Positions 2,951 to 64,000 of a stretch of 64,000 nt of DNA are shown piece by piece. Source of the DNA: Spinacia oleracea (Eukaryota; Streptophyta; Magnoliopsida; Caryophyllales; Amaranthaceae); the NCBI RefSeq assembly GCF_020520425.1, contig NC_079487.1, positions 129,788,385-129,852,384 on the forward strand. Direction: 5' to 3'. Within the stretch, counting starts at the first letter, position 1, and each line of letters starts with the position of its first letter. A program made the position numbers and the translations under genes. The notes below the pieces were generated by a model. The model was not told where the DNA came from and did no database searches. It saw only the letters and a list, made by a program, of their open reading frames with translations.

Positions 2951-3490
2951 TAGGGGTGGACACGAGCCGAACCGAGCCGAACTCTATATGGCTCGGCTTA
3001 GTTTGGTTAAATTTTTTCGAGTTCGAACTCGAGCTCGAACTTACCTCGAGCTTAAAAATCCTTATCGAGCCAGGCTTGATAAGAATTCTTCGAGTTCGAA
3101 CCGAGTTTCGAGCTTTTTCGAGCCTTGACTCGATAAACTAATAAACCATATTCTACCAACCGGTACAATAATATATTAATAAATTTCTTAATCTAACATT
3201 ATAATAGTATTTTTCTTGGACAAGTTATGTAAAATATTTTCCCCTATTTATCATCCAATTGATAATTTAGACTATGGTATTAAAATTCTCATAAATATAC
3301 AATATTATTCTTAATTTATCGAACTCGCGAGCTTTCGAGCCGAACACTATTGAATTTGAGTTTGGTTCATTTAGTTATAGAACCATAAATTTAAGTTCAA
3401 GCTTGGTTCATTTACAGACGAATCGATCTCGAACTGAAATCGAATTGATTCCGAGCTGTTCACGAACAATATCGTTCGTGTCCACCCCTA
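2951..3490. mobile_element. hAT-type non-autonomous element (540 bp)
   Basis: A 15-bp perfect terminal inverted repeat (TAGGGGTGGACACGA) is flanked by an exact 8-bp target duplication GACATGCC at 2943-2950 and 3491-3498. The interior is full of GAGC/TTCGAG words that fold on themselves and no transposase is present. The 8-bp duplication and the TAGGG-type end place it in the hAT superfamily. The exact duplication suggests fairly recent insertion. Confidence 0.9.
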
Positions 3491-3824
3491 GACATGCCCT
3501 TTTAGCACATTCTTTCTCATTGGCCTTAAGTACATGTCGATTCCTCATGCCCCTATTGTTAAATTAAATTCATTGAATTTCGAAAATGTTAAAACCTTAA
3601 AATAAAAGTGGCTTGAAAAAATAGTATTCCTTATTAAATTAAACAGTTTTCAAATAATATTATCGATTTATACCTCAGTAATAATTCTTTAGTATTTTGA
3701 AACAACATTACCAACTTCATAAAAAAGTTCCATGAATTATATATGAAGTATAACTTAAAAACTTAGAATAATGAATAGATTTAACAAGTGGAAATGAATT
3801 ATTAATGTTGGTTGAGGATTGAGA

Positions 3825-3985
3825 TCCTCCTCCTACTGATTCTTTGAAGCTCAATTTTGATGAGTCGACATCAAATCTAGAATTTGTCTTAGGCAGTTGG
3901 TGTGGTTATTCGCAAATCGCAATGATATATGGGGTCAGCTTATTGCTGCTACTCTGCATGGGCCAATTAATCTTATGAGTTATGA
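3825..3985 (+). pseudogene. LINE remnant: start of an RNase H domain
   Basis: The plus strand reads PPPTDSLKLNFDES, then after a frame change AVGVVIRNRNDIWGQLIAA. This is the beginning of the RNase H domain at the end of plant L1-type LINE ORF2, where PPP..FKLNFDGS is the usual opening. It is truncated on both sides and frameshifted. Confidence 0.65.
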
Positions 3986-4189
3986 ATTCATTCTCCATCT
4001 TGATTGTTGATTAAATGTAAGCATAACATAATGATACTTAGTTACGTAGTATTCTCTCCGTCTCTATATATATTCTAATAGCAGGATTAAAAGGATGTAT
4101 AAACACTTATTAGATTTTCAAATAATCACCTTCGGAAAAAATAAAGTAAAAAAGATTCATTTGATAAATTTAGCTTGATCTAAGTTCAA

Positions 4190-4636
4190 ATGTTTTTGGG
4201 GGTTCATAGCATGTTCACCAAGTCACCTTTGGCGACTTGGTTTGTTATTGAGCTTCTGCTCACAAGGTCGTGTCAACCATTTCGTCAACTTGTCGTCCTT
4301 TCGTGTCTTTCTTTGTCCTTTGAATGCTACGGGTTTAAAGGGGTTCATCTTAGTGTTTGTTGTTGCCCAAGTTTTGGCCCAAGTGAAAGTGGAAATAAAA
4401 GTGTGGAGGATGACTTCAACAATCGAGAGCCAGATTACAAGGTGATTACTATCTCTGTAATTTTATTTTATTTGCGTTGTAAGTGGTTTGTAAGAGCTAG
4501 TAGAGCTCATTTTAGTAGCTTTGGATGTGTAAGGGTCTTGATCGGTCCCCAAAACTTAAGTAGTTTTAGTATAGGTTGTAATCCGTGAACTTTTTAATAT
4601 TGTATGTTTATCCGATGTAAAAAAAAAAAAAAAAAT
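4190..4636 (+). mobile_element. poly(A)-tailed retroposed segment, source unknown
   Basis: About 430 bp ends in an A-run at about 4619-4636. It includes an open frame of 132 codons from 4190 that matches no family I recognise. The A-tail suggests reverse-transcribed origin, perhaps the 3' end of the LINE whose RNase H remnant lies just upstream. A short inverted repeat (CAAGTCACCTTTGGCGACTTG) lies near 4217-4238. Confidence 0.35.
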
Positions 4637-5461: not shown

Positions 5462-6720
5462 GATTTTTTATTTTTATTTTTTTACAAGGTAAGAACAAAA
5501 GGAAAAACACTATGAGACCCTCCTCACGAGGTGTACTCCTAATGCATCAGAAGAAATGATAGGAAATAAACTAGAGTTATTACAAATATCAATATCTAGG
5601 CTAGCTAGTAGAAACAAGATGTCCAATATTAGCGATCCAATCTCCTGCTCTATTTGCTTCTCTGTAGACGTGTCCGATTTTTCAATTGCAGAAGGAATTC
5701 AGGAGAATCCGATTATCATTAATAATATGATCAATTTTCCAAGGAGAGGACCAAGTACCAAGCCGCATTTATTACTAAGAGGTTATCACCTTCGATGTGG
5801 AGATTATAAATACCCATATCGCGAGCAAGGACGATGCCAAGGTGGAGAGTTGTGGCTTCTACGATGAACGAGGAAGTATAACCTAGATTGTAAGTGCAAG
5901 ATTTATGAGGTTGGCCATTGGAGTTGCGGATGATTACTCCTGCTGTTGCAGAATTATGACGAGTCGAACCATCAAAGTTGAGTTTGAAGAAATTAGGAGG
6001 AGGGGCCTCACATGCTACTGAGATGAGGTGGTGGTTAGAGAGAGGATGAGAATGAGGTTGCCTGATAGGCCCTCCCAAAGAAAGAAAAGAGTCTATACGA
6101 ATTCTGTAGTCCCATTCCATAAACGTGAGACGAGCGTGATGATAAACTCTAAAAACATCAAACATTTCATTGTGGAAAATGGTGGCATTGTTCTTTCCAG
6201 AGACTCCAAATGAGGAAAATGAACTTCATAAGCGCGGTCTTATGCGTTTGATAGTTTTTAAAAGCTTCTTCGATTGAAATAATGGAGACAAGAGCATCTA
6301 GTCAATGTTTGGTTATAGGGAGAGACGGAGAGTCAATAATTCATTTGTCTTAGGGCAAGAGAGAAAAAGATGGTCAATCGTCTCGATATGAATGTCACAA
6401 AGAGAACAAGTACTGAAGGGGATTATATGTCGTTAAAAAAGGGTATTCCGTACACTTAAGCTGTCATGGATGATTTTCCATTGAAAAATTTGAATTTTCG
6501 GTGGTATATCCACTTTCCACATCCATTTCCCCTTCCAAGTTGGTTTTTCGAGATTTATTCCATGAGCAAACCAAGTTGCAGATTTAACAGAAGGTTCCTG
6601 AGTTTGGACCCCATACCGGAATGTCAGTCATTGGTGAAGTGGGAAGGGGAATCCCAATTATTATCCTGACATGGTTGTCCGAAAGAATGATTTTAAGCTT
6701 ATCTAAATCCCATTTTAAGG
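5462..6720 (-). mobile_element. 5'-truncated LINE (RNase H end, minus strand)
   Basis: A T-rich run at 5462-5484 is the poly(A) tail of a minus-strand insertion. Upstream of it the frame 6165..5731 reads PPPNFFKLNFDGS, then TAGVIIRNSNGQ, EATTLHLGIVLARDMG and LHIEGDNLLVINA, which are the RNase H motifs of a plant L1-type LINE. Between 6170 and 6720 the minus strand keeps fragments of the zinc-binding region that precedes RNase H, with stops. It shares its 3' end with the copy at 13806-14310. A dead truncated copy. Confidence 0.8.
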
Positions 6721-25099: not shown

Positions 25100-26199
25100 G
25101 ATCCTCAAATCGTCGATTTTTGGGACGATGAAGAAGTTCGATGGAAAAATGGACAAGAAATAAGGTTTTGGCCCTCTGTATTAACACTCCTAATACGACT
25201 AGTAATAAGACCGTCGGGGTTTTTTTTTTTTTTTTTTTTTTGTGTGCGCGCGCGGGGTGAGACTTGAGAGACGGACCAGGTGACAGTGTGATCGGTGTTC
25301 TATGAGTTAACCACTGAAACTAATTAGTTAAATACTTGGAATTAATTAGTTAAGCAATGGAACTAATTAGTCAAGTATTAGAATTAGAACTAGTTAATTA
25401 GTTAAGCAATGGAACAAATTAGTTAAGCAGTGAAACCAATTAGTTAATCAATCGAAGTGGTCTTTCCGGTAAGGGGGTCTTATACAAAAGTTGTCGTTAG
25501 ATATATAATATTATACTTACACTTTGTAATTACATAGTTATTATGTGCAGTTAGTTATACATTGTTATTGTCTTAGTGTTTTGATATTGGATTGTGCGGC
25601 GTGCTCTTGCCTATTTGGCGGCAAGGGTGTCTCATGGCTCGTAGGGCACGAGTGAGTGTTTGATTCAAAACGAACACTTTTTCCTACTGGCCATGCACAC
25701 AAAGGTCGGCCCGGGCGCTTGTGTAGTTGTGTGGGCACACGAGGCACAAGTTGGGGGCGACAACGAGAATGTATATGGTTTGCGCGACTTTGATGGATTT
25801 TGGGTGCTTTAGGGCGAGTGGCTGTGTATTATCTATAAATAAAAACCTACAATTAAACACTATCGATAAAAACAATTGGTGAGAAGAACTATAGGAATTT
25901 CATTCATTCATTCATACCCCTCGTATGAGCATAGAGGTTTATTTTGAATACCCGTTGACACTAGATTAACAATAAAATAATTCTAACTAAAGTTAGAAAT
26001 TAGAAACCCATTAGAAAATCCATATAAAGCACTAGATAAGCAAAATACATATAAATAAATGTTGGATTCTAACACAAATGCTTCTACAACAACTATAATT
26101 CGACCTCTTTATCACCACTAACATCATCATTTTAAAAGTCAAATAAAGTTTATATAAATTATAAACAACTATTGCCTTGTTTGGTCGCTGGTTTAACTA
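25100..26199. other. intergenic between TMEM208 and the mariner
   Basis: No gene seen. It holds the likely TMEM208 promoter and 5' UTR near 25050-25180, a T-run with GTGTGCGCGCGCG at 25218-25256, a degenerate short tandem repeat at 25310-25452, and at 26171-26197 the left part of a MITE-like repeat (CCTTGTTTGGTCGCTGG) into which the mariner jumped. Confidence 0.5.
25310..25452. repeat. degenerate tandem repeat of AACTAATTAGTTAAG
   Basis: About six copies of a word like AACTAATTAGTTAAGCAATG, of roughly 23-25 bp with substitutions, lie head to tail. Non-coding. Confidence 0.75.
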
Positions 26200-26226
26200 C
26201 TCCCTCCATTCCCTTTTGTTCTTCCC
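26200..26226 (+). repeat. mariner left terminal inverted repeat
   Basis: Begins CTCCCTCCATTCCCTTTTGT and runs to TTCTTCCC. It is preceded by target-site TA. Confidence 0.9.
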
Positions 26227-26618
26227 CTAAAGAATGTTGGGTGTGGTTTAAGAAAACTGAATCTTGGTTTGTATTGGGATATGAGTAATGATTGGGTGTA
26301 AGAATAATGATTGGGTGTAAGAAATTGAATAAAGTAAAGAGAGAGAAAGTATTTAATTAATAGGGAGAAAAGTAGATATTTTATTAAAGTAATGAAAGAA
26401 ATCAGAAAAAAAATTCAGTCACATGGGGTATGGGACCCATCAGCTCTTACATGGACCAATCAGATTTAAGCATACAATGACTCACGTTTTTTTTGGCTGG
26501 AAATTAAGCCCAAACAATTGATTTCAGTTTTCCCTCCAAATTTTCCCCCCAAATAAAAAAACAGGGGATTTTTAATTTCCCTCCAAATTTTTGAGGGGTT
26601 GACATAGTGAATTCCCTT

Positions 26619-26626
26619 TATAAATA
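26619..26626 (+). promoter_or_regulatory. TATA box of the mariner transposase
   Basis: TATAAATA lies 121 bp before the transposase ATG, in the context CCCTTTATAAATAGGG. This is a good plant TATA box and leaves an A-rich 5' UTR of about 90 nt. Confidence 0.6.
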
Positions 26627-26746
26627 GGGTCACTTTCCCCCCACAAAAGACCAAAATCTGACTTTTACCAAGTTCAATAAATACAAGCAAAACACCAAAA
26701 TTTCTTCCTCAATTCAGCATTAAATAGCAAAAAAACAGGGGACTTA

Positions 26747-28393
26747 ATGGCTTCAGATCAAGAGGATGACGATTTCCTCGGATTTTCTGATGATGAAGGC
26801 GATGGCATTAACTCCGATTCTGACTCAGAGGTAGGTGATGATGCTGCTGACTTGGTACAAGCTTCTCAAAATACTGCTGCTGATTTTGGGGACATTGGGT
26901 TTAATGAAGATGTACCAAACAGCACTGAATATGTACAGCAAGTACCAGAAGTAGAAGGGGAAGGGCACCAGCAAACTACCAACTTTCAAGAGGTACCATT
27001 TCTTTTTGATTTGAACTTTCCACCACCATCAGAAAATGCATCACCAATTCATCATCAAACAGCAACACCCAGAACAGATCATCATAAGCCTAGGACTCCT
27101 AGAATAAATAATGAATTGAGGCTTGAAATTTTGGTGTACCTGCTGAATAGAAAAATTCCAGATTCAGAAACTCTTTTGTTTGGGACAATAAGGGATGCAG
27201 CCATAGAATTTGATTACAACAGAAAAACCATAGGGTCAATATGGGACAAAGCAAAGAAGCAGAAGGCAGCAATGAATTCATATGTGGTGGAAAGTAAGTA
27301 TCACAAGTGTGGCAGGAAAAAGGTTCAAGTCACATATGACTCTATTGCACAAATAGCCATGGGGGACAGAACATGCATTGTAGATCTTGCAAGAATGCTC
27401 AATTTGGGACCAACAACAGTATGGAGGCTCATCAAGAGGAAAATTATTAAGCCACACTCAAGTCCCTTGCATCCAGGCATTTCAGATGCATGCAAAATGG
27501 CAAGGATGAGGTGGGTACTCAGACTAATAATGGATTACACTATACCACAGGAACCAACTTATTACAGCATGTATGACTTCATTCATATTGATGAGAAGTG
27601 GTTTTATTTGACTCAAAAAAACCAGAGAGTTTATCTTGCAAACAATGAACCCTATCCACATAGAAGTGCAAGTTCAAGAACCAAGATACCAAAATTCATG
27701 TTCATGGCAGCAGTAGCCAGACCAAGGTGGGGTGAAAATGGGAATTGTGAATTTGATGGTAAAATAGGCATATTTCCATTCACAAATGCAGTTGCAGCCA
27801 AGAGGACATCAAAAAACAGAGTAAAGGGGACCATTGAAACAAAGCCAGTGAAGTCTGTGAATCAAATTGAAACAAGGGCAATGATGATCAACATGCTAAT
27901 TCCAGCAATCAAGGCAAAGTGGCCACCACATGAAGGGGAAAAGGTCATCTATATCATTCAAGATAATGCAAAGGCACATATATTGCAAAATGATCCTGAA
28001 TGGCAACTACACTACAAACAAGATGGGTTCACTTTTGTGTTGACTCAACAGCCAGCAAACAGTCCAGATTGCAACATCTTGGACTTGGGATTTTTCAGGT
28101 CAATACAATCACTTATGCACAAGAAAATGCCTAAAACTGTGGAGGACTTAAGTGGAGCAGTGTATGATTCTTTTAATGAGTTGCATCCTAAGACATTGTC
28201 TAATGTGTGGATGACATTACAGTTTGTTTCTAATGAGATTCTAAAACACAAAGGCAACAATGATTACCAACTTCCACACAACAAGAAGAAGATTTTAGAA
28301 GATGAAGGCAGACTGCCAGAGCAAGTCAAGGCACCTATATGGGCAGTTAATGAATGCATGCAACTCTATGATGAATGGAAAGCAAACCAGTGA
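26747..28393 (+). CDS. mariner transposase, DD39D (548 aa, intact)
   Basis: Cut-and-paste transposase of the plant mariner type. Residues 1-60 are strongly acidic. Two helix-turn-helix regions follow at about 118-170 and 197-232; the second ends LGPTTVWRLIKRK and would bind the terminal repeats. The catalytic domain carries FIHIDEKWFY (D282), IIQDNAKAH (D406) and SPDCNILDLGFF (D446). The 39 residues between D406 and D446 are the DD39D signature of plant mariner-like elements such as beet Vulmar and rice Osmar. The frame is unbroken, intronless and starts at an ATG downstream of a TATA box. The length fits the family (about 450-550 aa). It has no detectable defect, so activity is plausible but not shown. 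Confidence 0.95.
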   Translation: MASDQEDDDFLGFSDDEGDGINSDSDSEVGDDAADLVQASQNTAADFGDIGFNEDVPNSTEYVQQVPEVEGEGHQQTTNFQEVPFLFDLNFPPPSENASPIHHQTATPRTDHHKPRTPRINNELRLEILVYLLNRKIPDSETLLFGTIRDAAIEFDYNRKTIGSIWDKAKKQKAAMNSYVVESKYHKCGRKKVQVTYDSIAQIAMGDRTCIVDLARMLNLGPTTVWRLIKRKIIKPHSSPLHPGISDACKMARMRWVLRLIMDYTIPQEPTYYSMYDFIHIDEKWFYLTQKNQRVYLANNEPYPHRSASSRTKIPKFMFMAAVARPRWGENGNCEFDGKIGIFPFTNAVAAKRTSKNRVKGTIETKPVKSVNQIETRAMMINMLIPAIKAKWPPHEGEKVIYIIQDNAKAHILQNDPEWQLHYKQDGFTFVLTQQPANSPDCNILDLGFFRSIQSLMHKKMPKTVEDLSGAVYDSFNELHPKTLSNVWMTLQFVSNEILKHKGNNDYQLPHNKKKILEDEGRLPEQVKAPIWAVNECMQLYDEWKANQ

Positions 28394-28653
28394 AGCAAGG
28401 TGAAAACAATTAGATAACTTTTTGTGTTTTGGGGACATGTTTTTAAATTGACAAGTAAAACCAATGTGTCACTTTTGTAAGCTTAAATGCAAGCATAACA
28501 TGTAGGCAAAACATTTTGTAAGCATATCTTTTGGAAGCATCAATGAATGAATCTCATGTTTAAGTTTAGTAAAGTTTTTTTTCCATCATTCTTATTCACA
28601 TCAATGTAGAGTAATCAAGGCAAGGCAATAAACATCAAATGAGTACATAACAA

Positions 28654-28760
28654 GAACAAGGCAGCATTGGCAGAAAAAGTACAAGGCACAAGAGGTAAGG
28701 CAGCATTGGCAACACTATAAACAAGGCAGCATTGGGTTCTTAAGAACAAGGCAGCATTTG
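28654..28760 (+). repeat. four short direct repeats GGCAGCATTGG
   Basis: AAGGCAGCATTGG recurs at about 28658, 28697, 28724 and 28748 (last copy TTTG), spaced 25-40 bp apart. Confidence 0.8.
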
Positions 28761-28778
28761 CAATATCACAACTCTAAA

Positions 28779-28858
28779 CACATCGGCTTCAAAATGGAAA
28801 TAAATAATAATATCACATCATTTTCAGATGGAAATTATTCCCATTTTGAAACCGATGC
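28779..28858. repeat. foldback 1 in the mariner
   Basis: Left arm ACATCGGCTTCAAAATGG and right arm CCATTTTGAAACCGATG pair with one mismatch. The loop holds ATCACATCATTTTCAGATGG, which recurs in foldback 2. Confidence 0.8.
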
Positions 28859-29132
28859 GTCAAAAGATGTAATTTTGACAAAAACAATCAATTCATCATT
28901 GATAACACATGGAATATGCCTCACATAAACAAAGATTCATAAATATCTCAGAATGTCCCCAAAAATCATTGAATCAAACCCTTTCCAATTAAACTTAGCT
29001 CCTGAAAAACATCATGGATGCTAATGGTGCATGAGTTTGATTGAAAAACAAAGGGTTTGACACTCATAAAATGAAGACTCATCACAGATCACAAGGCATA
29101 AGTACAAAAACTTTATCACATCACATCTCTAA

Positions 29133-29211
29133 ACACATCGGCACCTAAATGGAAAGAATGCATATCACATCATTTTCAGATGGAAATTCTTCCCCATTGG
29201 ATGCCGATGTG
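29133..29211. repeat. foldback 2 in the mariner
   Basis: Arms CACATCGGCACCTAAATGG and CCATTGGATGCCGATGTG pair imperfectly. It is a diverged copy of foldback 1 with the same loop words, about 354 bp downstream. Confidence 0.75.
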
Positions 29212-29340
29212 CCAAAAGATGTAATGGACAAAGAAACAAGAACAAAGCAGAAAAAACAAGGAAGCAATGAACAAGGCAACATCATTGACTCTCAGTTAAG
29301 TTGTTTTACATCATTGACAGATTTGTTTCTAAATGATTTA

Positions 29341-29430
29341 CAACCTCACCACCAATTCACCAAAGGGGATACTAGATCAATCAATGATGTGACATGATCT
29401 GTATTCCCTTTGGTGATTGGTGGTGAGGGA
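29341..29430. repeat. foldback 3 in the mariner
   Basis: Arms CCTCACCACCAATTCACCAA, then AGGG, and CCCTTTGGTGATTGGTGGTG, then AGG, pair over about 23 bp with one bulge. Confidence 0.8.
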
Positions 29431-29500
29431 CATGTTTAGAATCAAATATCTCAGGTTATCAACACATACATCACAGATCAGAAACACTAACATCATTGAA

Positions 29501-30616
29501 TATCAGAAACACATTATACATGTTTTGCAATACATGAATTGCCTCTCCTGTCTAACCTGACATAAGATCTCAGAATGTCCCCAAGCATCATTGACACAAA
29601 CCCTATCCCCTAACACTTAGCTCCGGAAGAGCATCAATGATGCTAATGGTGCACAAGTGTTATTGGAACATTGGGTTTGAGTCTCAGCAAATGAAAGACT
29701 CATCACAGATCAAGCATAACAATAACAATCAACAATGCATCAGATCACCATGAACTGATCAAAGCATAGGGTTTGAACCTCATCAAATGAAAGACTCATC
29801 ACAGACCTCCACTGATTCATGGGACATGAAGCATTAAACAGATCATTAACATGTAGGGTTTCATTTCTCAGACATATTGACACACATCATTGATCAAGTA
29901 GTTTCAATACTATCATATCTTTAACATTCTTCTGCCGAATGGAATGATTGATATTCACATTCCATTGTGTGAAATGACATTCACTCCGTTCGACAAAAGA
30001 AGTTAAAGGACAATTATCAAAACAAAGATCTCAGAATATCAACAATCACATCATTGAATATCAGAAACACATTATACATGTTTTGCAAGACATGAATTGC
30101 CTCTCCTGTCTAACCTGACATAAGATCTCAGAATGTCCCCAAGCATCATTGACACAAACCCTTTCCCCTAACACTTAGCTCCGGAAGAGCATCAATGATG
30201 CTAATGGTGCACAAGTGTTATTGGAACATTGGGTTTGAGTCTCAGCAAATGAAAGACTCATCACAGATCAAGCATAACAATAACAATCAACAATGCATCA
30301 GATCACCATGAACTGATCAAAACATAGGGTTTGAACCTCATCAAATGAAAGACTCATCACAGACCTCCACTGATTAATGGGACATGAAGCATTAAACAGA
30401 TCATTAACATGTAGGGTTTCATTTCTCAGACATATTGACACACATCATTGATCAAGTAGTTTCAATACTATCATATCTTTAACATTCTTCTGCCGAACGG
30501 AATGATTGATATTCACATTCCATTGTGTGAAATGACATTCACTCCGTTCGACAAAAGAAGTTAAAGGACAATTATCAAAACAAAGATCTCAGAATATCAA
30601 CAATCACATCATTGAA
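29501..30616 (+). repeat. 558-bp tandem duplication in the mariner
   Basis: Two nearly identical units, 29501-30058 and 30059-30616, differ at only a few scattered bases by eye. Each includes a foldback (about 29922-30007 and 30480-30565) whose arms run from CTTTAAC...TGCCGAA to TTCGAC...GTTAAAG, and a second one around AAGCATCATTGACAC / CATCAATGATGCT. Related, older pieces of the unit lie at about 28948 and 30640. Confidence 0.9.
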
Positions 30617-31280
30617 GATCACAAACCTCCTAATATTGATCTCAGAATGTCCCCAAGCATCATTAAAACAACTCCAAACCACAAACACTTAGCGCCCGAG
30701 AAATATCATTACTGATACTAATGGCAGCACGAGCATTTGTGGTTAGTTGGACTTGTTCCTCAGCAAAAAAAAGACTCATCATCGATCACAATAAATAAAG
30801 GGACATTATTGTATCCTAAAGGGACATGCTTGGACATTAAGCATTCAACACCAGGCCACACTGAGAGGACTGAAATAACTCAAACCCTATCCCCAAATTA
30901 TATTCATTTCATGCCTTTACTAATCCAAAACATAGTTATACTGATCAAATCTCATACTCACCAAAGCATCATATTTATCATACACAAAACATACCATAAA
31001 ACAGGGGACATTTAGCCATCAAATCATGTTCATCACACAGACAACATTCCACAAAATTTCATAACCATATGGAAACACCATCATCCAATCATCATTATCA
31101 ATATCAATTTCATAACATCATTATCTAACATCAACATCCATACAACTAATCACAACATCATCATCCAAACAACAACACCCCTGGCCAACAACAGATCACA
31201 GTTGTTGGCATCCACCTTATGACTCCACAGCTAGCCAGCATTCAATAAAATGAAAAAAGGGAGAAAGGAGACAGACTTAT

Positions 31281-32518
31281 CTAAGCATCATCAGATGCTG
31301 AAGCCGATTTTTTTCCCTTTTCTCCTTTCTTTGAGGAGGGATAACCAGATGAAAGTTGTCCTGGAGACCCAACAGCATCACCATTCTCATTTTCACACTC
31401 TCCAACATACACCAGATCAAATGAATCAGACCCACTTGGTTCCTTGCAATCAATAGGGGACAAACAACATGATTAGTGCCATCATAAAATAACAGGGGAC
31501 CATGAATTAAAATCAGATTTAATCAAACAACTCAAAATAAAGTTCCAAATAATTTCAGATCACCATGGTTACCACATGCAATGAGATAAATGAAAGCAAA
31601 TCACACAATAATTCCATTAAAATCCAACTAATTTTCGGAATACATCCAGATCCCAATTTTACCCAAAAAATGTGAAATAATATCCCAAATACATCCAGAT
31701 CCCATTTTTAACCACATGCAATGGGAAAACAGATCAACAAAACACATGAATATTCCGATTTTCTTCAAATAATTTCCAAATAGCTCCAAATAAAATCAGA
31801 ACTCAATTTTAACAACATGCAATGAAAAAACAGAGCCCAAAATAAAATCAGAACTCAATTTTAACAACATGCAATGAAAAAACAGAGCACAAAATAAAAT
31901 CAGAACTCAATTTTAACAACATGCAATGAGAAAACAGAGCAAAGAATAACATAAAAAGCCCGAATGAATCCAACAAATCTCCAAAAAATTCCCAAAAATT
32001 TCGAAAAAATACCAGATCTGCATTTTTAACACATGCAATGGGAAATCAGAGCAACTACTCCAGAAAATAATCCGAGTTTAATGAACAATACTCCAAATAA
32101 ATCAAACATTTATCAAATCCCACTTTTTTAGACATGCAAACATTCATCAAACCATTTTAATAAAACCGACATCAATAACCCTAAATAAATCGCAAAAAAT
32201 CAAAATTAATACCTCATCGGAATCTCCTTCACCGAAAAAACGCAGATCTGAGGGAGTGGGTTTCCGATCGTCATATTTTGACTCAACCTCCTCTCCTGGC
32301 TCCACTTCCCTCTTCCGAAACCATTCTTCCAAATAGTTTCGAGTACTCGTATTTTCTTTTTGGGCCAAATACAGATTGTTTTTATATTCGGCGGAGTAGG
32401 AATGCTCGTTATTGGGACAGTTGCACTTGGATCCCCAATCACAGTTGGAATCGGGGATTCTTTGACCAGAAGTTCCCACCCCAGAATCACCTCGAGTTCT
32501 AGACAAAGAAGAACCCAT
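31281..32518 (-). CDS. predicted spliced antisense protein of the mariner (155 aa, unknown)
   Basis: Exon 1 (32518-32213) is 102 codons from ATG in a good context (CTTTATGGGT). It ends GEGDSDE at a GAG|GTATTAAT donor. Exon 2 (31442-31281) follows an acceptor with CACTAAT and a T/C-rich run before TTGCAG-like TTGCAAG|G. It keeps frame 0 and ends KKGEKGKKSASASDDA. The product starts MGSSLSRTRGDSGVG, has a Cys/His cluster (C26, C32, C34, H39), a middle RNYLEEWFRKREVEPGEE, and an acidic then Lys/Ser-rich end. I recognise no family. A GA-rich stretch at 32718-32790 reads as a CT-rich leader on this strand. It is convergent with the transposase and wholly inside the terminal repeats. That it is a real gene is an inference from splice phase and composition. 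Host-gene capture or a regulatory cofactor are both possible. Confidence 0.5.
31571..32060. repeat. degenerate repeats in the intron of the antisense gene
   Basis: ACATGCAATG followed by (G/A)(G/A)AAAACAGAGC recurs at about 31574, 31714, 31815, 31868, 31921 and 32031. The middle three form a 53-bp tandem with the words AAAATCAGAACTCAATTTTA. Confidence 0.8.
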
Positions 32519-33022
32519 AAAGTACCAGAAAAACAGAGATCGGCGACGATTAGGGACCAAAAAGGGGACAAAAATAGAGGGGATCTGATCGGAAAATGAT
32601 TCCGAGTAATTTTTATGAACGTTTTTCTGCGAAAACGTTTCAGATTTGCGAGATTTGGAGAGGAAAACCCAGATCAGAGGCGGAAAACCTAGGGTTTTCT
32701 CAAGAACAGGGGAGGAATTTTAAGAGAGAGAGAGAGTGAAATAAGAGAGAGAGAGAGATCCGAAGAGGTGAGAGAGAGAAATCAGAATGAGAGGTGAGGG
32801 AGGGATTGAGAGATAGGGACGGGTAATAAAGGGAGGGGGGGTAGGGTTAGGTTAATTAATAAAATAAGGTGGGTGGGGTAAAAGTGGGTGGGAAAGGGTA
32901 GAATCTTAGGGTATTTTTTGTAAATAGTGGGGAATCTTAGGGTAAATTGGTAAAAAAACTATGGCCAAAAATAGTAAAGATTCAGTAGGGGAAGAACAAA
33001 AAGAAATGCTAAAAAAGGAAAT

Positions 33023-33049
33023 GGGAAGAACAAAAAGGAATGGAGGGAG
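33023..33049 (-). repeat. mariner right terminal inverted repeat
   Basis: Read inverted it begins CTCCCTCCATTCCTTTTTGT, one mismatch from the left end over 27 bp. TA follows at 33050-33051. An inner direct copy of the TTTTTGTTCTTCCC word lies about 30 bp inside, a plausible second transposase-binding site. Confidence 0.9.
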
Positions 33050-33051
33050 TA

Positions 33052-34260
33052 GTTGTTAGTTGTTTGTATTAGCTGGTTTGACTAACTGGTTGAATTAGCT
33101 GTTTGTGTAAAAGTGTTTGGTAAATTAGTTGTTAAATGTTAGTTGTTTAATATGTAAAATGACCATTAAGGATACGTTGTTGTTGGGTACTTTGTTTCTT
33201 ATTAGTATTAGACAATAGTTTATGTTAATTATCTTCTCTTTATTTTTTAAATAAGCATAGAATAAATAAATAAATAAATTATATTTCGTTTTAAAAAATT
33301 AAAAAATTAAAACAATTCTTTTTCTAAAAAATTATTCTTAATTTCAAATTTTAAATACATAAACTATTGATCGATATGCAAATAGCTAAAGAAATGCTAG
33401 TAATGACATTACAAGCATGATTGCAATAGTTTTAATTAAGTATTTCAACGTACTAATATAAATTTTATTACAACAAGTAGCGAGTAGTAAATAGGGTAAA
33501 TGAAATAATGTAGAATGTTAAGCTAGGCTGTTAAGTGTTGTGATTTTAGGCAATATTAGGACAAAGTAGTAATTTTACATTCACTTTCTCAAACCGCTAA
33601 TTGCAAAAAGCTCATATATTGAGTTTTTTGAGAATTAACTTTTTCACCCCAAAACTCTCTTCCAACCCTCTCCTAACCAAACACTCCCAATTAGCTTTTT
33701 GAAAAAGTCAAACCTCTAATTCACCTCAAAAATATTTTCCCCCCTCAAACCTCTCCTAACCAAACACTCCTAATATAGCGAAAACATTAACACTGTGTTT
33801 GGAAACCAAGTTAACTTGGAAATGCGAGGAAAAGTAAAATTATGAAAATCTGTAGAAAAGTAAATCTGAAGAAATATGTAGAAATCTCTAAATTTTAATT
33901 TGTTTGCATGCCTAATTATTATGGAAAACTGGAGAAATTGGAATATCACATATTTTTCACTTCTTTAATTTTGTTTTTCACAGATTTCCACAGTTTTTCC
34001 ATCACTTCTCGGGGGGAAAAGTGTGGAAAACAAAACAGTTAAAGTATAACTAGTTGATTTCCATAGTTTTTTACACATTTCATTTTCCCCACTTTTTCAT
34101 TTAAATTACCAAACAAACTAAAATCAAGGAATTCTCTTATTTTACACACTTTTCCTCATTAAACTAGAGTTCTCAAACCTATTATAAACGTAGTATATAT
34201 GAAATTCAAAATATAAATAAACACCGGCAACAGCAAAAAAATTTACTAATACATAATCTG
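33052..34260. other. non-coding MITE-like sequence right of the mariner
   Basis: 33052-33775 continues the repeat the mariner entered (TTAGCTGGTTTGACTAACTGG..., ending CTCTCCTAACCAAACACTCC). 33785-34170 looks like a second, old MITE with TGTTTGG near its left end and GAGGAAAAGT words inverted at both ends. No gene seen. Confidence 0.4.
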
Positions 34261-34264
34261 GCAA

Positions 34265-35702
34265 AGTAAAACCGGAGGTTATCTTGGAGTATGAGGGGTA
34301 TCTTTCGAGCTAGTAATCTTCTGTTCAAGGGTTGTGATTGGAAAATTGGAAATGGTAAGAAAGTTTGGGCTGGTAAGGATAGGTGGGTCAATGGAAGAGT
34401 GCCTGAGTTTAAATCAAATGTCACACTACTCAATGCAGCGACATGGAAAGTTAATCATTTTATTCTTCCTAATGGTTCTGGTTGGAATCTTAATCGGGTT
34501 CATTCTTGTTTTGAGTTTAACGACGCCAGGGAAATTGTGGCAACAGAATTGCCTTCTACTAGTGTTGAAGATTTTCTTTACTGGCGTTTTCACAAGTCGG
34601 GTAAGTTTACTGTTAAAACAGCATATGCAATGTTAGCAGTGGAGGATTATGGGTTGGCACAGGCCCATCCAGGTTTGGATTTTTTTAAGATTTTGTGGGC
34701 TCTTAAGATCCTCCCAAAATGGAAGGTTTTTTTGTGGAAATTGTTTCACAATGGAATTGCTTCAAAAGTGAATGTTCGAAAGAAAGGAGTTCAGTTGTCT
34801 CTTACTTGTGATTTTTGTGCAAAAGATAACGAGGATATTCAGCACATTTTCAGGTTTTGTGACTGTGCGAAACGCGTTTGGAGGTATGGATCACTTGCGA
34901 TCCATTCAGAAATCAATGAGAACCTTTCCTTTATTGACTGGGTTCTCTACTATATCCGGCTTTTTCAATGCCAGGATGGGAAGAATAGTGTTAGGGTTAT
35001 TTATTTCATTGCAACACTTTGGGGTCTTTGGTTATCACGTAATAACCGAATATTCAGGAATGAAAGGGGTGAGGTTCTCGCAGTGTATATTATTATCAGG
35101 GAAGGTTTGAAGCAGCAAGAAATCTTTAGCAATCATCCATTTCCTGCATTACGTTTCCTACATCCTCCGGAAAATGATCCGCTTTATCCGCCGGGTTTTT
35201 TTAGAGTGATACTTGCTGACTCAGAGATACAAGGAATAATGTCTTTCATTCAGGTTGATGGATCTTGGAAGAAGAATACTCGGATAGCTGGAATGGGTTG
35301 GGTGCTTAGTAATCCTCTGATAACATCGGATAGGATCTTAGGTGGAGCTTCTGTAGGGACAGCGAAGTCAGCTCTTCAAGCGGAGGTCCTTGCATGTTTG
35401 TTTGCACTTAGATGGAGCATTACAGCTACAGTTCGACATATTACTGTTCTAACGGATTCTCATATGTTGGTTGAAATGCTTCTCCAACAAAGCACGATTG
35501 ACATTAACCTGCTTTGGACCATAACTGAGATTAAGCGTCTGGGAAGAATGTTCGACTGGTGCAGCATCCAAAAGGTAGGTCGAGATCAAGTTCAAGGTGC
35601 TCACGACATTGCAACCTCTGCAGCTGCAACTTCTATTTCTTTTGCTTTCTTTCCTTAATGTTTGTTTAGCACTTGTCAAAAAAAAAAAAACCAAAAAAAA
35701 AC
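34265..35702 (+). mobile_element. 5'-truncated LINE with long open 3' frame
   Basis: The plus strand is open for 455 codons (34291-35658). It reads SWSMRGI...FKGCDWKIGNGKKVWAGKDRW, the end of a plant L1-type reverse-transcriptase ORF. Next comes a zinc-binding region (about residues 133-195: KWKVFLWKL, CDFCAKDNEDIQHIFRFC), then RNase H (D323 in QVDGSW, E in QAEVLA, D in LTDSH). An A-rich tail with one CC break lies at 35678-35699. The 5' part, with endonuclease and the RT core, is missing, so the copy cannot move by itself. The unbroken frame shows it is younger than the LINE tails at 5.5 and 13.8 kb. Confidence 0.88.
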
Positions 35703-56538: not shown

Positions 56539-57388
56539 GACTAAACCACTTGTTATGAAGGTAAATAAATAGAAATGGGATTATCCGTAACTGATGTGAA
56601 TAAATTGGGTTAATATTTTCAATTTTTACGCTACATAAACTCAAAAATTACCTAACTCTAAATGAAAAGCTTTTCAATTGGTTAAAGATGACCAAACCCA
56701 AATGGACTTGATCAGTTGATCCCATATTACGAATGACCTGAATGGCTGAATGTCATTGCCATTTCAGCTCCTGTACAATGCTCGTCTGAGTAACGCATAC
56801 TACGTAACAACTTTGATAAGCTTTGTTCCATTAGTTTATTTTATTAATTGATACGGAACAACATATACGGAGTAATGAATTTTATTGAAAAAACGACTAA
56901 ATTAGAGTTTTACCAAGTTCAGAATATATATAATTAGTTTATTACTTGAAAAAAGTATTCCGTAGTAAAGTTTGTTAGGAATACATGTACCCATATCTCG
57001 TGCATTAGATGCATAAACATAGTCAAAGTTTAACTAACTTCAAATATTAATAATATTAATTTAGAACGAACAGAGTGTTTATCGATGAAAGATAAACTAG
57101 AAGATTTATTTTTCTTTTTTCTATATGCTCCATCTCATTTCATCAAAATTTCCATAGATTTTGGATCAAGTCAAATAACAATTTGATTGACATTTGATAA
57201 GTGTTCTGATCCAGCTGTTACACTACAGAAATTTCCACTTACATTACATGCACGTAAATTTGCAAATTATCAACCATCAATTGTTATTCCAACTTCCTAA
57301 AATTAAGCTCCCATCACAAACTCCCTAGCTCCTCTCATCTCCTTCCAATTCCTCTCACCCTTCTCTTCTCTCTCCTGGAGAGGAAGCC
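56539..57388. other. TMK upstream region, no gene seen
   Basis: AT-rich non-coding DNA. The last 90 bases are CT-rich (CTCCTCTCATCTCCTTCC) and look like the TMK leader. Confidence 0.5.
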
Positions 57389-60300
57389 ATGGAAGAAGAC
57401 GACGACAAACTCCCTACCACCACCGCAACCACCACAATGGCGTTTGTCACCGTCATCTTCCTCCTCTTTCTCTCCACCCTCTCCCTCACCACGGCCGATG
57501 ACACAGCCATCATGATGAAACTATCCGCCTCCTTAACCCCATCACCTCCCACCTGGTCCGGCAACAACCCTTGCAAATGGCAGGGCGTAAGCTGCGACTC
57601 CTCAGGTCGAGTCACCGCTATAACCCTCACCTCCAGGTCCCTCACCGGAACCATACCTTCAGAAATCACACAACTCTCTAGCCTACAATCTCTCTCCCTA
57701 CAAAACAACCAACTCACCGGCACCATCCCGCCCCTCGCCAACATGACTCAGCTTCAAGAGGTTTACATTGATGGAAACTCCTTCACCAAACTTCCTTCCA
57801 CCTTCCTTGTTGGCCTACCAAACCTCCAAACCTTCAGCATGAACGATATCCCTTTACCTACCTGGACATTACCTGTAGGGCTATCAGATTCATCCTCTCT
57901 CCAAGAGTTTCGCGCTTCTAATACAAACCTGGTTGGATCAATCCCTGACATTTTCGCGTCATTTCCTGGTTTAAAAGATCTAAGACTCTCCTACAATAAC
58001 CTTACTGGGTTCTTGCCTGCTTCCTTGGCGGGTTCAGGCATTCAGAATGTTTGGATCAACAACCAAAAGCAAGGACTCTCCGGAGTCCTTGACGTGTTTG
58101 GGAAGATGCCTAGTTTGTCACAGTTATGGGTGCAACAAAATTCATTCATCGGTCCAATCCCAGACCTCTCTAAATGCACCTCATTGTTCGATCTACAGCT
58201 TAGGGATAACCATTTAACCGGGGTGGTACCACCTTCTTTAAGCAATCTACCAAACCTAGTAAACATTTCAATGCAAAACAATCAACTTCAAGGACCAATG
58301 CCGGTTTTCAAGGGAGGTGTACAAGTCACCCTAGGGTTTACTAACAGCTTTTGTAAGGACACACCAGGTCCTTGTGACCCTCAAGTCACCTCCTTACTTG
58401 ATATTGTAGGTTCATTGGGTTACCCTAGCGAGTTAGTCGTGTCGTGGAAAGGAAACGATGCTTGTAAGAATTGGGCTCATGTGAGTTGTGATTCTAATGG
58501 GAATGTGGTTATGGTGAATTTTGCTAAACAGAATTGGTCAGGAACCATTTCGCCGTCTTTTGCTAATCTAACATCACTTACTTCAATCCTTTTGAATGAT
58601 AATAATCTTGTAGGAAGTATACCGGGTGTTTTAGCCAGCCTTAAGATGCTACAGAAGTTTGATGTTTCTAACAACAACTTGACAGGGAAGATTCCTACCT
58701 TTGCTCGAACCGTGGAGGTGATATCTACAGGAAACCCTTTCTTAGGGACAAATGTCGATACTACTAAATCCTTAAAGTCACCTCCTGATATGAACAACTC
58801 TCCTACAGAAACAAACGATAGTGATAATCCTACAACTTCATTGTCCAAACTACATTTTTCTCGCTCTGTTGTCATAGGGGTTGTCATTGTTGTCATAGTT
58901 CTGTTAGTAGCTGCAGGATACTTCTTGTACCCTGGCTTAAAGAAGCTGTTCGCCTCACGAAATATCAAAGGGAAGAAGAAGAAGAAGAATAAGTTTGAAG
59001 ATTTAAAGATGAGCCCCATTGGTAAATATCCTCAAGGAAGTCCAAAAGAGCAAAGTAATATGCGTAACAATGGGCATAATAATCCTTTGTATGACCAAGG
59101 TAACAGCTTCCCAATTGAAGTCCTACGTGAGGTAACAGATAATTTCAGTGAAAGGAACGTTTTAGGACGAGGAGGGTTTGGGATTGTTTACAAGGGAGTT
59201 CTTCAAGATGGGACTGAAATCGCGGTTAAAAGGATGGAATCTAACCTACAAGGTTCTAAAGGGAAGAGTGAGTTTGAGGCAGAAATTACTGTTCTAACTA
59301 AGGTGAGACATAGACATTTGGTGGCACTTTTAGGATATTGCATCAATGAGAATGAGAGGATTGTTGTTTACGAGTATATGCCTCAAGGAACGTTGGGGCA
59401 GCATCTTTTTGAGTATGATCAAGAAGGACGATCCCCTCTGACGTGGAAACAGAGGCTTGTGATCGCTTTGGATGTTGCTAGAGGTGTTGAATACCTTCAT
59501 AGTTTGGCTCAACAGAGTTTTATACATAGGGACTTGAAACCGTCAAATGTACTTCTTGGGGATAATATGAGAGCTAAGGTTTCAGACTTTGGATTGGTGA
59601 AAAATGCTTCTGATCAAGGAAAATACTCGTTGGAGACTCGTTTAGCAGGAACCTTTGGGTACCTTGCACCAGAATATGCAGGTAAGTTAATTAAAACTCC
59701 TAATTAAATTTCCCCTTCTTTGTTTGTTAGTTTTAGATGATCTAGTTCTGTTAGGGTCTTGTGCAGATGTTGAATTTGAATACTTAATTTGTGTCACATA
59801 ATTGGCTTTCCTGAAAATAAAAATAAAAAAATAAAAAAAATCCTGTCTTTGAACTAATGTCTGACTTGTTCCTTAAGACGGAAGTTTTTATTATGCATTC
59901 ATCCATACACCGTCTTCTGTTATTTACTCCCTTTGTCCCTTTTTGTTTACCCCATTTTTCATTTTGGTTCTTCCCCAAAATATTACTCCATTACTAAAAA
60001 TTCTCACGGGACTACAACTTTTACTCTCACATAAATTACATTTGGTTCAAACATTTTTGTCTTTTCTCAATTCCACAAACCCAACTCTTAATAAAACATA
60101 TCTAAAGCATGGGGCAAACAATTAGGGACATAGGAAGTACTACACACACCCTCAGTTTTAACCACTAGGTCAATACCTCATTAGTGTCTTCTGTTATTAA
60201 TGACAAGTGAGGGTTGTGCATGATTCTCATCACTATCCTGTAACCCAATTTTGTTGGCTTCTTATTGTTATTTAATCAATGAATAACTATATTTTGATAT

Positions 60301-60870
60301 GCTTCCTTTTGCTAAATCATTCAATTTCTCAACGCAGCCACCGGAAGAGTAACAACAAAAGTCGACGTGTTTGCATTTGGTGTAGTACTAATGGAGATAA
60401 TAACCGGAAGAAAAGCCTTAGACGAAAAGCTACCAGAAGACCAAGCACAATTAGCATCGTGGTTCAGAAGAGTTCTCATCACCAAAGAAAGCATAAGAAA
60501 GGCCATAGACCCTAACCTCGAGACAGACATAGAGGAAACTTTCGAAAGCATTTGCAAAGTGGCTGAGCTCTCAGGGCACTGCACAGCTAGGGAGCCACAA
60601 CAGCGTCCTGATATGAGTCACGCGGTTAACATCCTGTCCCCTCTGGTGGAGCAATGGAGACCTGCTGAGCTGGATACTGACAATGATTGTGTTGGGATAA
60701 ATACCGACGTGAGTCTTCCTCAGGCTCTTCAGAGATGGCAAGCTGGTGAGACTACGATGATGAGTGAATATAGTAGTGTTATGGATGATGATAATAGCAG
60801 ACATTATCACTCTAGCGCTCCTACTACACCTGCTATGGGGGAAAGCTTTACCAACTTCAATGGTCGATGA
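57389..60870 (+). CDS. TMK-family leucine-rich-repeat receptor kinase (941 aa)
   Basis: Plasma-membrane receptor-like kinase of the TMK1-4 family, which in Arabidopsis acts in auxin signalling at the cell surface. Exon 1 is 57389-59681 and exon 2 is 60338-60870, joined within an Ala codon (YAATGRVTTKVDVFAFG). After a signal peptide (MAFVTVIFLLFLSTLSLTTA) come two blocks of LRRs split by the Cys-rich hinge typical of TMKs (SFCKDTPGPCDP to NWAHVSCD). A transmembrane helix lies at about 492-515, then a Lys-rich stop-transfer stretch, then a kinase with GRGGFG (593-598), VAIK-like Lys614, HRDLK (Asp715), DFG (Asp733) and APEYA. All catalytic residues are present. The length equals that of TMK1 (about 942). 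The first ATG gives 16 extra residues before a second ATG (57437) that begins the signal peptide directly; either could be used. TMK1, TMK3 or TMK4 is not decided. A Stowaway sits in the intron. Confidence 0.95.
59937..60137. mobile_element. Stowaway MITE in the TMK intron (201 bp)
   Basis: Ends CTCCCTTTGTCCCTTTTTGT, then TTACCCC, and inverted CTTCCTATGTCCCTAATTGT, then TTGCCCC. TA lies at 59935-59936 and 60138-60139. Confidence 0.85.
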
Positions 60871-62767: not shown

Positions 62768-63871
62768 CTACCGATCCACAAAATGCAATGTATCCAACAA
62801 CGTTCTATAAGTCTTCTCCCCCATCGAAACATCCGTCTTCCTAAACTCCTCAAGAAGCTCTAATGCATCAACACCCTGTCCATCCCTACACATCTCCTCC
62901 AACAAGGTCTTGTACGTTAACAAATCTGGTTTCAACGCATTCCCCAACATATCACGCAAAACCTCAACCGCGTCCTCAAACTTTCTCTCCAACGCCAAAC
63001 TACAGACCAAAACCATATATGCACCACTCGAGGGCACCAAGCCTTTTTCCCTCATCTCCTTAAAAAACCCAAACCCCTGCCACACCCTCCCCTTCTCACA
63101 ACACCCCTTGAACAAATAACCATAACTATACGCATTCGGCTCACATCCATACAACCCCATCTCCCTAAACACCCGCACAGCCTCGTCCACCTGCAAACAC
63201 TTCGCATATGCCTTGATAATCATATTCAACACATAAGTATCAGGCACCACCCCAAGAGCCTTCATCTGCTTAGTCAAAGACCTCACAGCATTCAAATAAA
63301 CATAACTAACATTCAATCGATTGAACTTCTTAAGCAAAGCATTGAAAAGCATAGCATATGTTTCTAAATTAGGTTTACAATCTAGGGTTTGTTCCTTCAT
63401 CATCTTCTTATACACATCGAAAACGCGATTAAACAAACAACGATGGGAGCAACAGAATCGAATCAAGGAGTTGTAAAGAGAGAGAGTTACAGGGCAAGCG
63501 CCGGCAAGAACCTCTTCCAGGAGGGCTTCAGCGTGGCGATGACGGCGGCCGGCGACGGCGAGTTGGATCATGGTGAGGTAGGTGGAGGAATCGTGGGTGT
63601 AGCCGCGTTGTGTGGCGGTCCACCGGAAAATATCGTAAGCTAAATCGGCATCGGTTTGGGAGTTGAGGGCATTGTTGACGTCGGACGGGGTGAACCCGGG
63701 TTTAAGGTGGTCAACCCATGTTTGGAATTGTTTTTCGGAGGGGGTTTGGGATTTGAAGAAATGGGGTTGTGAGGGAGGAGGGGCGGTGGAGAGAAGGCGG
63801 TAGTGGAGGGGAAGAGCGAGAATTTGACGGAGGGGTGTGGCGAGGGCGCGGCGGATGAAGGTGGTTATCAT
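62768..63871 (-). CDS. short mitochondrial PPR protein (367 aa)
   Basis: Single-exon pentatricopeptide-repeat protein of the P class. Such proteins bind organelle RNA and steer its processing or translation. The N-terminus MITTFIRRALATPLRQILAL is Arg-rich without acidic residues, as in mitochondrial presequences. After a leader domain (WVDHLKPGFTPSDVNNALNS) come about six to seven 35-residue repeats such as PDTYVLNMIIKAYAKCLQVD, PNAYSYGYLFKGCCEKGRVW and PDLLTYKTLLEEMCRDGQGV. It carries no E, DYW or SMR extension. It resembles the Arabidopsis At3g25210 type (from memory). The frame is intact, and the coding strand is GC-rich compared with its surroundings. Confidence 0.92.
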   Translation of the reverse strand: MITTFIRRALATPLRQILALPLHYRLLSTAPPPSQPHFFKSQTPSEKQFQTWVDHLKPGFTPSDVNNALNSQTDADLAYDIFRWTATQRGYTHDSSTYLTMIQLAVAGRRHRHAEALLEEVLAGACPVTLSLYNSLIRFCCSHRCLFNRVFDVYKKMMKEQTLDCKPNLETYAMLFNALLKKFNRLNVSYVYLNAVRSLTKQMKALGVVPDTYVLNMIIKAYAKCLQVDEAVRVFREMGLYGCEPNAYSYGYLFKGCCEKGRVWQGFGFFKEMREKGLVPSSGAYMVLVCSLALERKFEDAVEVLRDMLGNALKPDLLTYKTLLEEMCRDGQGVDALELLEEFRKTDVSMGEKTYRTLLDTLHFVDR

Positions 63872-64000
63872 GGTGGTGGTGGGAGGAAGGAGAAGGTGGG
63901 TTTGGGGAATGGTAATTGGGTGTTGCGGAGGAGTCGAGGAAAGATGAATGGGCCTAAAGTTTGGGTTGGTACTTGGGTAATTTTAGGGACTATACAGCCC
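63872..64000. other. PPR upstream edge
   Basis: Only 129 bp remain before the window ends. They should hold the PPR leader or promoter; no motif is clear. Confidence 0.4.

Follow-up and report, generated by a model that had tools for sequence, protein, structure and literature searches.

Mariners are treated as the simplest cut-and-paste transposons, with one gene between two inverted repeats. In plants, the PlantMar (DD39D) group, which we take to comprise the mariner-like elements of the Osmar, Soymar and Vulmar1 type, has CTCCCTCC inverted repeats, a TA target site and a DD39D transposase, all of them common to the spinach element described here. The accessible passages of the literature call the PlantMar structure typical for Tc1/mariner, give a length of 2-6 kb (PMC7325037; the spinach element has 6.85 kb) and describe plant mariners as usually single-transposase elements (PMC4423477). 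The spinach element fits this group in its TA target site and its CTCCCTC-type inverted repeats, but it departs from the single-transposase plan, since it carries an extra convergent, intron-bearing gene (ORF2) and, in addition, internal hairpin modules. In the open-licence full-text literature, within the portions of text accessible there, no mention of an additional gene was found for plant mariners (Repbase and subscription papers lie outside that body).

Extra genes as such are already known from other superfamilies and from the ciliate TBE elements. MuDR and the MULEs have a second gene (mudrB, or the antisense PMD ORFs) inside their inverted repeats, as the spinach mariner does; mudrB is convergent with its transposase gene, and ORF2 shares this orientation with a mudrB-type helper. 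In some MULE groups the second gene is often antisense, according to the available sections of PMC6446971. MULEs, however, belong to another superfamily with other proteins, and they are likened to ORF2 by description, not by sequence. In the VANDAL elements, as far as the available text of the two papers goes, an accessory gene occurs with non-coding tandem repeats that carry a one-way short motif (PMC5735166; PMC10398659), and VANC binds motifs held in these repeats, and in introns too (PMC5735166). An accessory gene together with non-coding tandem repeats or an intron bearing a one-way short motif is also seen in the spinach element, but VANDAL elements are MULEs, unlike the spinach mariner, and VANC is likened to ORF2 by described features alone.

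The TBE elements of Oxytricha are Tc1/mariner elements with three ORFs, the extra ones under purifying selection and one of them reversed, and with short tandem repeats (PMC4724952, in the part available). Extra selected ORFs, one in reverse, combined with tandem repeats in a Tc1/mariner element make up the likeness; the differences are that TBE are ciliate elements with a 22-kD ORF and a 57-kD zinc-finger/kinase ORF, and this comparison, too, is one of description alone. The second protein of Harbinger is Myb-like. PIF/Harbinger resembles the spinach element as a two-gene cut-and-paste transposon (so described in the relevant passage of PMC4423477), but no Myb-like domain was found in the spinach second-gene proteins.

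Structure of the element and its second gene

The genome searched was that of Spinacia oleracea (894,210,420 bases, six main contigs of 115-189 Mb). The window is the whole stretch of 64,000 nucleotides of contig NC_079487.1 that was analysed, and its features are collected in Table 1.

Table 1. Positions of the mariner, its genes and its repeats in the window, and of the convergent ORFs at three further loci
Feature	Position	Strand	Remarks
Plant mariner element	26200-33049		6,850-bp, DD39D; TA on both sides
Left terminal inverted repeat	26200..26228	+	begins CTCCCTCCATTCC, TA before
Transposase	26747..28393	+	548 aa, intact, DD39D
Hairpin module copy 1	28945..29093	+	
Hairpin module copy 2	29566..29718	+	
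Hairpin module copy 3	30124..30276	+	558 bp after copy 2
Hairpin module copy 4	30638..30791	+	
ORF2 exon 2 (predicted)	31281..31442	-	53 codons + TAG, preceded by CTAATCATGTTGTTTGTCCCCTATTGATTGCAAG
ORF2 intron (predicted)	31443..32212	-	770 bp, GT...AG, branch-point-like CTAAT before acceptor
Six copies of CATTGCATG	31575..32040	-	all in sense direction of ORF2, within intron
ORF2 exon 1 (predicted)	32213..32518	-	102 codons, ATG to GAG, then GTATTAAT at GT donor
Cys/His cluster NCDWGSKCNCPNNEHSY	within 32213..32518	-	in ORF2 exon 1
Right terminal inverted repeat	33021..33049	-	begins CTCCCTCCATTCC, TA after
L029 convergent ORF	3662-4093	-	no Cys/His motif
L030 convergent ORF	3762-4205	-	no Cys/His motif
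L031 convergent ORF	3103-3624	-	no Cys/His motif

At its ends the element has 32-nt inverted repeats that match at 97% and, with a few flanking bases counted in, occupy 26195-26226 and 33023-33054. In its transposase, 39 residues lie between the second and third catalytic Asp, a spacing found in eight of the nine transposases of the tree, L036 being the one unmatched by the pattern. In the surroundings, open frames at 5731-6225 and 34270-35658 look by eye like remnants of RNase H-bearing non-LTR retrotransposons flanking the element, and host-like genes (a leucine-rich receptor kinase and a pentatricopeptide-repeat protein, also recognized by eye) occupy 57329-60870 and 62768-63982.

An initial annotation had placed a spliced antisense gene inside the terminal repeats, convergent with the transposase. 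This is borne out: ORF2 (31281-32518, minus strand) lies within 26200-33049, antisense to and convergent with the transposase, and starts near the right inverted repeat. The proposed coordinates and the length of the joined product (155 aa) were also correct, with exon 2 resuming after the AG acceptor in the same phase (phase 0 across the junction), and both exons, their phase, the splice sites, the copies and selection agree on a spliced antisense protein gene inside a plant mariner.

The further claim that the 102-codon frame ends exactly at a GT donor stands for the donor and falls for the frame end. Specifically, in the window copy the exon 1 frame stays open for 21 codons beyond the donor, inside an open stretch of 190 codons, and the donor in this copy is therefore a gene-model choice. 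The comparative data nevertheless support it, because the frame closes in other copies and identity drops at the end of exon 1. The frame stops one codon past the exon 1 end in six of 20 copies (L011, L012, L015, L016, L017 and L022; in L011 it closes there, yet the donor itself is lost). Against six divergent copies, the last 60 bases of exon 1 have an identity of 0.64-0.75 (without gaps in five of the six, with 12 in L024), versus 0.56-0.62 and 10-24 gaps for the first 60 bases of the intron.

The divergent copies are 20 loci taken from 26 exon 2 matches at <=88% identity; exon 1 is present in 19 of them and in the window, and four (L016, L017, L026 and L027) have transposase and ORF2 between CTCCCTCC ends adjoining TA. 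Of 20 copies (divergent loci and the window), 17 retain the GT donor (L009, L011 and L013 are without it), that of L019 lying three bases downstream of the projected position; the AG acceptor is retained by all of 21 sequences (20 divergent loci and the window) except L009. The acceptor context in the divergent copies mostly consists of a branch point resembling CTAAT, a tract resembling TGTCCCC and TTGCAAG/GA (junction at the stroke), the intron measures 563-1143 bp, and a core of exon 2, SDSF(D/E)LxYVGECEN, is conserved. From the conserved splice sites we infer that ORF2 is spliced, with one intron, in the window's lineage.

Copies, selection and relatives in other mariner lineages

Exon 1 has at least 150 matches in the genome, and many retain the frame: among the best 150 of 271 candidates, which were scored, 145 are free of stops. 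For the transposase, 79 of 695 candidates were scored as matches, all at 94-100%. In all but one of these (78/79), exons 1 and 2 follow on the opposite strand no more than 25 kb downstream, the distance from transposase to ORF2 being at most 5.7 kb in 73 of the 78 and 9.4-21.9 kb in the other five; of the 69 transposases free of stops, 62 are accompanied by stop-free exons 1 and 2. Distances from transposase to exon 1 cluster near 3.5, 4.1, 4.8 and 5.5 kb, which is consistent with gain and loss of the internal repeat. The exon 1 protein is identical in 44 of the best 150 of 271 candidates (window counted), beside many near-identical transposase copies, and these near-identical copies suggest a very recent burst of the window's mariner family.

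Exon 1 is under purifying selection, about as strict as that on the transposase. Its frame is intact in nine of 20 copies and broken in the others, and the nine intact copies give a median pairwise dN/dS of 0.154; exon 2 is under weaker constraint, with a median of 0.36 (19 copies) or 0.51 (8 copies). Across eight exon 1 copies of equal length, pooled pN/pS is 0.25 in frame. Four wrong frames give 1.45, 1.52, 1.73 and 1.89, and the one remaining, which is read in reverse, gives 0.35 but contains 18 stops across the eight copies. Against the L027 family, pN/pS is 0.19 for exon 1 and 0.26 for the transposase. Values well below 1 across divergent copies, which the initial annotation had named as a mark of a real gene, are thus found together with retained splice sites. 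A chance open frame is ruled out by the wrong-frame controls and the conserved splice sites.

Other mariner lineages were found with a generic query for the catalytic region of plant mariners, and of 20 loci first chosen, five with open transposase frames (L029-L033) were analysed. Their transposases are 36-50% identical to that of the window, and all five have an opposite-strand ORF downstream of the transposase; chance ORFs of >=80 codons are common on both strands of these loci, and the presence of a convergent ORF alone is therefore weak evidence. The motif CDLGxxCEGEHSYSREY is common to the ORFs of L032 and L033, the latter with a frameshift after it, and ORF2 homologues occur in L032-L039. 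The L032 protein has 59 match rows in the genome (all candidates scored), including L033 and the L034-L039 group, and it weakly matches three members of the window lineage in the same frame (E 0.012-0.074), each match crossing one stop that precedes the start codon. The L036 protein, used as a query in turn, recovered the same group in 41 match rows. Compared by hhalign with an alignment of 13 homologues, the window lineage matches with a probability of 88.7 (E 2.5e-6, 27 columns).

The transposases of L032, L033 and L036, the three measured, are 43-50% identical to that of the window. A convergent transposase is seen in L032, L033, L035, L036 and L037, and within 5 kb none was found in L034, L038 and L039. 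For the L032 homologue, dN/dS is 0.11-0.29 between subfamilies and about 1 or more in close pairs, which have few changes; such a contrast would be expected if master elements are constrained and their copies drift.

The tree separates the window, L016, L027, L032, L033 and L036 from L029-L031 (support 1.0), and the second gene is firmly established for the former clade. Outside it, in the lineages of L029-L031, a second gene is plausible, not firm. The convergent ORFs of these three loci differ in sequence and have low-complexity, acidic stretches (with YDSDET in L029 and L030), and none has a Pfam match above the cut-off. That of L030 is found at nine places in 13 match rows, six of the eight others being convergent with a transposase found by the catalytic query; that of L029 has 22 match rows, with at least five places convergent with such a transposase and a pairwise dN/dS of 0.29-1.05 in its group; and that of L031 has one further match (74%), likewise convergent, with a dN/dS of 0.84 and one stop.

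Internal repeats and the Cys/His cluster

The region between the convergent genes is repetitive and contains copies of a hairpin module of about 157 bp. A profile made from the window repeats was searched against 32 sequences (the element and L009-L039) and matched 25 of them, namely the element and 24 of the 31 loci, with one to six matches each on one strand, partial ones counted; the same profile search did not find the module in L010, L012, L025, L029, L030, L031 and L038. Full-length matches lie on the transposase-sense strand, downstream of the transposase stop codon, and in the 19 sequences with both genes the matches lie between the genes on that strand; a few partial matches on the reverse strand reflect the palindromic form. 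The flanks of the module are well conserved. ORF2 occurs without a module match in three of 20 window-lineage loci (L010, L012 and L025) and in L038, and L029-L031, whose second ORF is without the Cys/His motif, have no module match either. As both occur in a single clade, the co-occurrence of gene and module may be one event.

The window copy of the module folds well (z -3.4). Over 46 copies, the mean z is about equal in sense and antisense (-3.15 and -3.11), and L036, L037 and L039 have conserved module sequence with little sense-strand folding. The alignment used to assess covariation has 28 rows, from the window lineage and L032 (the divergent copies of L033-L039 were left out), and the structure applied to it, of 32 pairs, was that of the window copy, a choice that favours the window structure in the slide control. 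This structure is paired in 86.3% of cells (28 module copies). Both sides are changed at 12 pairs in 73 cells, versus 28.4 in shuffles (0 of 500 as high) and at most 20 in the slide control, although each cell stands for a sequence rather than for an event and the existence of two module types accounts for part of the signal; further pair types are weakly raised (26 vs 22.8, a level reached by 16 of 500 shuffles). RNAalifold, applied to the 46-row module alignment, gave no consensus structure and no pairs, and for 28400-31200 of the window Rfam gave no match at gathering scores, the sub-threshold ones being mostly miRNA-precursor families.

A second kind of repeat lies in the ORF2 intron, as an array of CATTGCATG, which contains TGCATG, the core sequence that B3 factors recognize in the plant RY element. 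In the window intron TTGCATG occurs seven times where 0.26 would be expected, and the introns of L016, L017, L019, L021 and L023-L027 contain 5-11 occurrences, nearly all pointing the same way; the remaining loci have one to four, and the introns of L010 and L014 none. Non-coding tandem repeats of the element's own with a dense short motif, of the kind that VANC binds, are thus found in the window and in L016, L017, L019, L021 and L023-L027, not at every locus. The repeat units of the intron arrays of other lineages differ in length.

The spacing range of CCCH zinc fingers is C-x4..15-C-x4..6-C-x3-H. In the L032-L039 group the cluster reads C-x4-C-x5-C-x3-H, with the three Cys invariant (13/13 in the alignment of homologues) and the His in 12 of 13, and we take it to fall within the range of RNA-binding CCCH fingers. 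The window lineage falls outside this spacing; its cluster is degenerate (C-x5-C-x-C-x4-H), the first Cys of the homologues being absent. A Pfam scan of the second-gene proteins gave no family at the cut-off (including no zinc-finger family and no Myb-like or other DNA-binding domain), a PDB sequence search with them gave nothing significant, and AlphaFold2 models were unusable (pLDDT 55.8 and 50.7). A zinc or nucleic-acid role therefore rests on the motif. An APLF-type PBZ zinc finger was also considered and set aside as a lead, the best APLF chain having an E of 0.18, which is chance level.

Possible roles of the ORF2 protein

It is almost certain that ORF2 is a genuine, old second gene of a plant DD39D mariner clade, inherited with the transposase. 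As to its function, the evidence overall inclines somewhat towards an accessory protein that acts on the element's own repeats and keeps the element expressed. The product would be small, and its Cys/His cluster would grip nucleic acid; its targets would be the element's non-coding repeats, i.e. the hairpin modules and/or the one-way intron array; it would keep the element expressed, most likely by countering silencing, as VANC does for Arabidopsis VANDAL; and it would have no part in DNA cutting. The chances that the protein acts on the element's own nucleic acid, to judge from its motif and the repeats, may be about even, and a specifically anti-silencing action, drawn by analogy with VANC, is possible and put forward tentatively.

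The anti-silencing proposal has two close rivals. Firstly, the protein could be a transposition helper that assists the transposase as a cofactor, whether in entering the nucleus, in binding the ends or in integration; mudrB of MuDR and the PIF/Harbinger second protein would be its counterparts. This is unlikely, given that the mariner transposases of rice and bamboo (Ppmar2) reportedly move elements in yeast without a second protein, and that the second-gene proteins scanned lack a Myb-like or other DNA-binding Pfam domain. A helper would nevertheless agree with a constraint similar to that on the transposase, with the presence of ORF2 beside 78 of 79 transposase copies and with the small size of the second gene, as in mudrB, which the accessible text of PMC6446971 presents as apparently required for integration.

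Secondly, and rather improbably, a CCCH-like protein could bind the hairpin modules at the RNA level, either towards the 3' end of the transposase transcript or in an antisense transcript overlapping it, and control transcript stability or shield the transcript from small-RNA silencing. The modules do lie 3' of the transposase stop on the sense strand and show compensatory changes, and the C-x4-C-x5-C-x3-H spacing of the L032 group points the same way, but wobble counts are without sense-strand preference (46 vs 42, or 20 vs 42 without one pair), and the modules could equally well form a DNA cruciform or simply give rise to small RNAs.

Plant transposons often capture host genes, and the initial annotation had entertained a captured host exon pair beside a cofactor and an antagonist; yet a host gene fragment caught by an ancestral mariner and carried without function is highly improbable, for although exon 2 is weakly constrained and 71 of the 150 best exon 1 matches have no transposase within 25 kb among the matches listed, purifying selection acts across lineages with near-saturated synonymous sites, the splice sites are conserved, and the gene recurs in lineages with transposases 43-50% identical. 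Recent capture in particular is disfavoured because the homologues in these distant mariners (L032, L033 and L036) stand in the same convergent position; no host source gene was identified among the spinach exon 1 matches looked at singly, a subset of the best 150 of 271.

The preferred reading, in which an accessory protein acts on repeats of its own element, also allows a wider and distinctly speculative version, in which plant mariners are generally two-gene elements and, in one large clade, the Cys/His protein co-evolved with hairpin module and intron array as a sequence-specific self-recognition system, either anti-silencing or RNA-protecting. If an accessory role is true, at least one large clade of plant mariners would have a function that was not found described in the literature searched. 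It would be a further case, beside VANDAL/MuDR and the ciliate TBE, of accessory genes occurring together with non-coding repeats, and it would offer a testable answer to the question of how mariners stay expressed and abundant in methylating plant genomes.
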